From: Candidatus Nitrosopumilus sp.
GTDB lineage: Archaea > Thermoproteota > Nitrososphaeria > Nitrososphaerales > Nitrosopumilaceae
Assembly: GCA_003702545.1 (NCBI GenBank)
Contig: REGK01000002.1
Coordinates: forward strand, 1-55,277
DNA: 55,277 bases
Direction of reading: 5' to 3'
In this document: positions 24,862-25,651 of the stretch, in pieces
Numbering within the stretch: the first letter of the stretch is position 1
Layout of the letters: every line of letters begins with the position of its first letter
Notes under the pieces: model-generated
Database searches by the model: none
The model's input: only the letters and a program-made list of their open reading frames with translations
Told to the model about the DNA's origin: nothing
Made by a program: the position numbers and the translations under genes

Positions 24862-24935
24862 GGGCCCATAACTCAGCTTGGTAGAGTAACCGGCTCATAA
24901 CCGGTGAGCCAAGGGATCGAAGCCCTTTGGGCCCA
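24862..24935 (+). tRNA. tRNA with CAT anticodon (elongator Met or Ile2)
   Basis: GGGCCCATAACTCAGCTTGGTAGAGTAACCGGCTCATAACCGGTGAGCCAAGGGATCGAAGCCCTTTGGGCCCA; all arms pair. The anticodon stem lacks the GGG/CCC initiator signature. Confidence 0.93.
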
Positions 24936-24978
24936 TTATTTTCAATTAGTTTTAAAATAAGCAAAATCAAATTTTACT

Positions 24979-25041
24979 GGCTGCAATGAAGAATCAGAGT
25001 TATATCTGAATGATGATTGGAAGGCATTTGTCTGAGCTGCC
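24979..25041 (+). ncRNA. candidate box C/D sRNA (2'-O-methylation guide)
   Basis: Terminal stem GGCTGC/GCTGCC (5 of 6 pair), C box-like ATGAAGA (24986-24992), 13-nt guide, D' CTGA (25006-25009), C' ATGATGA (25010-25016), 15-nt guide, D CTGA (25032-25035). Confidence 0.6.
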
Positions 25042-25045
25042 GAAC

Positions 25046-25651
25046 TCATTTACCAATTTGATTTTTCACTTTTTCTAAAATCTCATCATCTACTAGGTTT
25101 TGTTCATGTAATGCTTTAGTGATTTGCAAAATATTCAGAATTGAATGCATTTTAACATCTAATTCTTCTAAGGCCTCATCTGCTCCCTCCATTCTATTTA
25201 CAATTACATATGCATCTTTTACTGAAATGTTGACTTCCTTTAATGATTTGATTGCATTAACAACAGAACCGCCTGTTGTTGCAACATCATCAATCATAAC
25301 TACATGCATTCCATCATGAATTTTACCTTCAACTGATTTTGAAGTTCCATAATCTTTTGGTTTACTTCTAACATAGATTAGTGGTTTTACTGTTTCAATT
25401 GCTAATGCTGATGCAATAACTAGACCTCCTGTAGGCACTGAAACTATTGAATCAAACTTGTCTAATCCAATATTTTGTGCAATCTCATTTTCAAGATGTT
25501 TGACCATTTTCCTGAATTCTTGAGGATAACTTGGGACTAGTCTTAGATCTACATAGTATGAACTCTTTTTTCCACTGGCTAGTGTAAAATCTCCAAATTT
25601 TATGATGCCTTTTTGATGCAAAAAGGTTGCAAACTCTTTTACAAATTCCAT
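25046..25651 (-). CDS. pyrE: orotate phosphoribosyltransferase
   Basis: PRPP motif 'VVMIDDVATTGGSVVNAI', 'FTLASGKKSSYYVDLR'. Confidence 0.94.
   Translation of the reverse strand: MEFVKEFATFLHQKGIIKFGDFTLASGKKSSYYVDLRLVPSYPQEFRKMVKHLENEIAQNIGLDKFDSIVSVPTGGLVIASALAIETVKPLIYVRSKPKDYGTSKSVEGKIHDGMHVVMIDDVATTGGSVVNAIKSLKEVNISVKDAYVIVNRMEGADEALEELDVKMHSILNILQITKALHEQNLVDDEILEKVKNQIGK

Follow-up and report, generated by a model that had tools for sequence, protein, structure and literature searches.

The 63-nt intergenic stretch at positions 24979-25041 of the window (the whole 55,277-nt piece of Candidatus Nitrosopumilus DNA analysed here) almost certainly encodes an archaeal box C/D sRNA with two guides, predicted from sequence to be transcribed on its own. 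It is very probably a real guide RNA gene that would direct 2'-O-methylation of two 23S nucleotides, A1912 and A1938 in E. coli numbering. As far as sequence comparison can tell, ammonia-oxidising archaea (AOA) and related lineages retain this same two-guide RNA. This is unusual for its class, since a review describes archaeal C/D sRNAs, guide pairs included, as turning over quickly (PMC7994747). The features of the locus are as follows.

24862-24935, + strand: CAT-anticodon tRNA, a neighbour outside the sRNA unit; ends 43 nt upstream of the sRNA.
24950-24957, + strand: TATA box TTTTAAAA, its centre roughly 25 nt upstream of the initial G of the sRNA; unchanged throughout the genus alignment.
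24979-25041, + strand: predicted dual-guide box C/D sRNA gene, 63 nt, GGCUGCAAUGAAGAAUCAGAGUUAUAUCUGAAUGAUGAUUGGAAGGCAUUUGUCUGAGCUGCC; covariance-model match of 93.9 bits, with orthologs in 264 out of the 300 genomes examined from the order.
24979-24984, + strand: 5' arm of the terminal stem, GGCUGC, pairing with the arm at 25036-25041; 45 homologs yield 41 compensatory cells.
24986-24992, + strand: box C, AUGAAGA; position 5 is A instead of U, and is A, G, U or C among homologs.
24993-25005, + strand: D' guide, 13 nt, AUCAGAGUUAUAU; its segment UCAGAGUUA forms 9 bp with 23S UAACUCUGA, the predicted D'+5 nucleotide being E. coli A1912.
25006-25009, + strand: box D', CUGA, from homolog comparison.
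25010-25012, + strand: D'-C' spacer of 3 nt; almost all AOA-type homologs have 3 to 5 nt here.
25013-25019, + strand: box C', AUGAUUG, in a corrected frame; RUGA core in 89 of 96 homologs.
25020-25031, + strand: D guide, 12 nt, GAAGGCAUUUGU; its segment AAGGCAUUUG forms 10 bp with 23S CAAAUGCCUU, the predicted D+5 nucleotide being E. coli A1938.
25032-25035, + strand: box D, CUGA, from homolog comparison.
25036-25041, + strand: 3' arm of the terminal stem, GCUGCC; covaries with the 5' arm.
25046-25651, - strand: orotate-phosphoribosyltransferase-like ORF, convergent, with its 3' end 5 nt past the sRNA.

A preliminary description of this DNA had proposed an archaeal dual-guide C/D sRNA here, 43 nt after the CAT tRNA and closed by a stem with five of six pairs. 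Sequence, position and stem are as it claimed, and its reading of the element is now supported by rRNA complementarity, box conservation in relatives and stem covariation. A loose pattern scan of both strands for the C/D'/C'/D layout returned this element as its sole match in the window, and there were no matches in 40 first-order Markov shuffles of the same window. A single A separates the 5' stem arm from box C. The guides measure 13 and 12 nt here and 12 and 12 nt in deeper relatives, close to the roughly 12 nt that typifies the class.

The anatomy of the C' box required revision. A C' box is indeed present, but the frame first assigned to it (AUGAUGA, 25010-25016) lies 3 nt too far upstream. 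At that frame only 23 of 96 distinct homologs carry DUGA, and in relatives it is broken (UUAAUGA in L012, AUGGUGA in L014), whereas the corrected frame, exactly 12 nt before box D, has an RUGA core in 89 of the 96; other lineages show AUGAUGU or AUGAAGA in its place. Moving the box 3 nt downstream removes the earlier caveat of an unusually short D'-C' spacer and changes the boundaries of the D guide: the 0-nt spacer and 15-nt guide first described were artefacts of the frame, and the corrected values are 3 nt and 12 nt. The internal motif then consists of D' CUGA, a 3-nt spacer and C' AUGAUUG, the arrangement expected of a k-loop.

The terminal stem covaries strongly. Across 45 diverse homologs it is 96.4% paired, with double-sided changes at all six pairs, and its covariation score of 0.455 compares with a mean of 0.155 after shuffling and with at most 0.149 when the arms are slid. 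The single-strand fold energy is ordinary (z = -0.21) and uninformative, as is expected for box C/D sRNAs. In the minimum-free-energy fold, within 24993-25009, UCAGA in the D' guide pairs with its complement UCUGA across the D' box, and the rRNA target of that guide itself contains CUGA; on this model the free sRNA may be self-occluded at D' before L7Ae binds. Turning to the k-turn, AUGAAGA and CUGA would allow the U2 position and both sheared G-A pairs to form. The mismatch of box C to its consensus, noted at the outset as a weakness, is real; as a caveat it falls away, the variant being normal among homologs. With A at position 5, an A-U pair would arise at what we take to be the 3b:3n position of the k-turn. 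Watson-Crick pairs at 3b:3n block k-turn folding by metal ions alone, according to PMC4382518, and an A-U pair there is consistent with the protein-dependent folding of box C/D k-turns. Three loci (L108, L048 and L050) combine box C AUGAAGA with CGGA instead of CUGA at box D, a change that also falls at 3b:3n.

Because the genome's own assembly is missing its rRNA, targets were read from eight rRNA operons of congeners and other relatives. In all eight, the same two 23S places rank top or joint-top, UAACUCUGA for the D' guide (9 bp) and CAAAUGCCUU for the D guide (10 bp), and the two lie only 26 nt apart in helices 69-71. Of 200,000 shuffled guide pairs, 4 matched as well with their two sites no more than 40 nt apart. 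The complementarity foreseen in the preliminary description was borne out for both guides. Matches to 16S did not exceed 7 bp. Placed on E. coli 23S, the predicted N+5 nucleotides are A1912 in helix 69 (D') and A1938 in helix 71 (D), each within a Watson-Crick pair of its guide duplex. Predicted archaeal sRNA-guided methylations are known to cluster in helices 68-71, densely around A1912 (PMC4644070). In yeast, methylated sites have been described at Am2256, guided by snR63, and Am2281, guided by snR13 (PMC8307265). From their spacing to shared pseudouridines and the E. coli sequence, these would be the equivalents of A1913 and A1938, respectively. In two relatives an insert of 708 nt (L044, G026) or 740 nt (L045, G030) interrupts the 23S gene between the two target sites, downstream of approximately position 1924 in E. 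coli numbering. The one at L044 contains a LAGLIDADG endonuclease gene (PF00961) and matches the group I intron model weakly, at 18.1 bits and below threshold. At these two loci the guides would bind adjacent 23S sites only after splicing.

Members of the genus differ in the flanks of the element but hardly at all in the stem, the two guides or boxes C, D' and D. A blastn search found the element in 36 of 41 related genomes, though many of these matches fall on the tRNA. A covariance model of the element itself matches 264 of 300 order genomes, from 57 of 63 genera, and 129 of 300 phylum genomes, with roughly one copy in each; the phylum matches include many families that do not belong to the order. 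Together with the genus alignment, these matches bear out the expected conservation of the boxes. A separate scan of named genomes for the two antisense cores gave 80 titled pattern matches, 58 archaeal and 22 bacterial, spread over Nitrosopumilus, Nitrosarchaeum, Nitrosotenuis, Nitrosotalea, Nitrososphaera, Nitrosocosmicus, Caldarchaeum, Hecatellales and others, plus chance matches in bacteria. The bacterial loci serve as a built-in negative control: the covariance model accepts 58 of 58 archaeal loci and 0 of 22 bacterial ones, one archaeal match, that of Methanomethylicus (L158), being weak (E = 0.097). One candidate paralog (L051, on G002:C5) was dropped because it does not have the C/D layout. 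These comparisons also bear on whether the element could be a fortuitous likeness within an A+T-rich spacer that has no function. Short degenerate boxes do arise randomly, and box C departs by one mismatch from the textbook consensus; conservation across the phylum, covariation in the stem and the paired rRNA targets nevertheless refute such an origin, which we consider vanishingly improbable.

The proximity of the tRNA had led to the suggestion of a tRNA-sRNA dicistronic transcript. In such a scheme both RNAs would share a precursor, from which maturation of the tRNA 3' end would free the sRNA. The two genes do share a strand at a distance of 43 nt, and tRNA-sRNA fusions exist in other archaea (PMC7994747). 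However, the linkage is anything but fixed: within the family the distance from tRNA end to sRNA ranges from 34 to 235 nt, in several relatives inserts of 1.4 to 16 kb separate the two, and in the other families examined no tRNA was found within 400 nt upstream of the sRNA. By comparison, most of the family has a TATA box at a fixed distance of about 25 nt upstream of the sRNA. Archaeal TATA boxes usually occupy this position. Since the tRNA linkage is variable and the TATA distance is fixed, independent transcription is the better explanation; a dicistron is not the main mode of expression, and we regard processing from a tRNA precursor as quite improbable, though some read-through from the tRNA may occur. 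The loci at which the CAT tRNA lies 1.4 to 16 kb away are L269, L270, L271 and L272, together with L015-L017, L020, L057, L063, L085 and L101. Many of them keep a remnant of the tRNA 3' end (AGCCCTTCGGGCCCATTAT-like) on the 5' side of the sRNA promoter, a pattern suggesting that elements have integrated at the 3' end of the tRNA; at L269 the insert carries a TFB gene (PF00382).

An independently transcribed sRNA of this kind fits comfortably among the archaeal dual-guide box C/D sRNAs, namely the sR families of Sulfolobus, Pyrococcus and Pyrobaculum (Dennis et al. 2015, PMC4644070). It shares with them a length of 50-70 nt, the order C-D'-C'-D, guides of about 12 nt, the N+5 rule and two nearby targets, here in the 23S helix 68-71 hotspot of the class. 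It differs from the known sR families in having its own guide pair and its own promoter and in scoring under every Rfam sR gathering threshold, and, unlike families with fast turnover, it is conserved as a unit across the phylum. At gathering thresholds Rfam gave no match at the locus; in a relaxed search the best was sR14, at 24.6 bits against a threshold of 38, with sR20, sR11 and SNORD15 lower, which places the element outside every existing Rfam sR family. A narrow search of the open-access literature, in itself weak evidence of absence, found no paper on C/D sRNAs in Nitrosopumilus. The protein partners of the class are encoded in the same genome, where the fibrillarin, Nop and L7Ae families (PF01269, PF01798 and PF01248) all score above cut-off.

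The closest parallels for the individual guides are eukaryotic. The D guide together with box D, AGGCAUUUGUCUGA, is identical to the Rfam consensus of SNORD15, the human U15 counterpart of yeast snR13, and snR13 has the same target, Am2281 (E. coli A1938). This identity can be forced by a conserved target, and common descent would not be implied by it. snR13 and SNORD15 are longer RNAs, and here the D guide shares one molecule with a guide for helix 69. The latter resembles yeast snR63, which modifies 25S Am2256 in the same helix-69 loop; that site corresponds to A1913, the D' site predicted for deeper relatives, whereas the D' box of this genome and of other ammonia oxidisers sits 1 nt further away and predicts A1912. 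Yeast needs two snoRNAs, snR63 and snR13, for an equivalent pair of sites for which a single sRNA would suffice here.

The difference at D' follows a lineage pattern. From the antisense core TCAGAGTT to box D' the distance is 4 nt in 61 distinct sequences and 3 nt in 26, with a degenerate or unusual D' in the remaining 9. The 4-nt register comes nearly always from Nitrosopumilaceae and Nitrososphaeraceae-type genomes and the 3-nt register mostly from other families; exceptions exist, such as L022, assigned to the same genus, where an AUGA box follows the core after 3 nt. Under the N+5 rule, A1912 is the predicted site for the 4-nt register and A1913 for the 3-nt register. In both registers box C stands 1 nt before the antisense core, and because that distance is constant it is the D' side that moved. 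Methylation would presumably follow the register. One evolutionary scenario, which we judge to be evenly balanced, is that a single dual-guide sRNA uniting the snR63 and snR13 sites was inherited largely intact through the Thermoproteota (in the GTDB sense), and that D' slid by 1 nt in the ancestor of the mesophilic ammonia oxidisers, moving the helix-69 methylation from A1913 to A1912.

The same variability invites a reading in which the C/D sRNA is real and methylation is performed by the D guide only, at A1938, with the D' guide mainly anchoring the rRNA as a chaperone. As a counterpoint to two active guides, the D' pairing spans only 9 bp and its register differs by 1 nt between lineages. 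Methylation by D alone would explain the looser placement of D', which comes 3 or 4 nt downstream of the antisense GUU and in some lineages is degenerate, whereas nearly all homologs share one D register. Chaperone roles have been proposed for dual guides (PMC4644070). Yet the antisense cores of D' and D are equally conserved, nearly every AOA homolog has CUGA at D', and yeast methylates the equivalent site, Am2256 (PMC8307265). A purely anchoring role for the D' guide is accordingly rather unlikely in our estimation, and two active guides are preferred.

With both guides active, L7Ae would bind the k-turn formed by C and D and the k-loop formed by C' and D', and Nop5 and fibrillarin would join the L7Ae-bound sRNA. 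The D guide would then direct 2'-O-methylation of 23S A1938 in helix 71, and the D' guide, by the N+5 rule, that of A1912 in helix 69, or of A1913 in deeper relatives. Since both strands of the H69-H71 region would be held at once, the sRNA may also aid the folding of this part of the subunit interface.

What is new here is the conservation of the sRNA across the phylum and the 1-nt slide of D' in mesophilic ammonia oxidisers. The locus goes beyond routine annotation in its intact, phylum-wide guide pair, its match to two yeast snoRNAs and its testable register shift. In practical terms, a gene missed by Rfam becomes annotatable in hundreds of genomes, and the ammonia-oxidising archaea gain a precisely predicted pair of methylation sites that can be tested. 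The predicted switch from A1913 to A1912 would affect a helix that touches the A-site tRNA. The persistence of the guide pair, its order, the boxes and the stem across many families marks both predicted subunit-interface methylations as something that the cell keeps.
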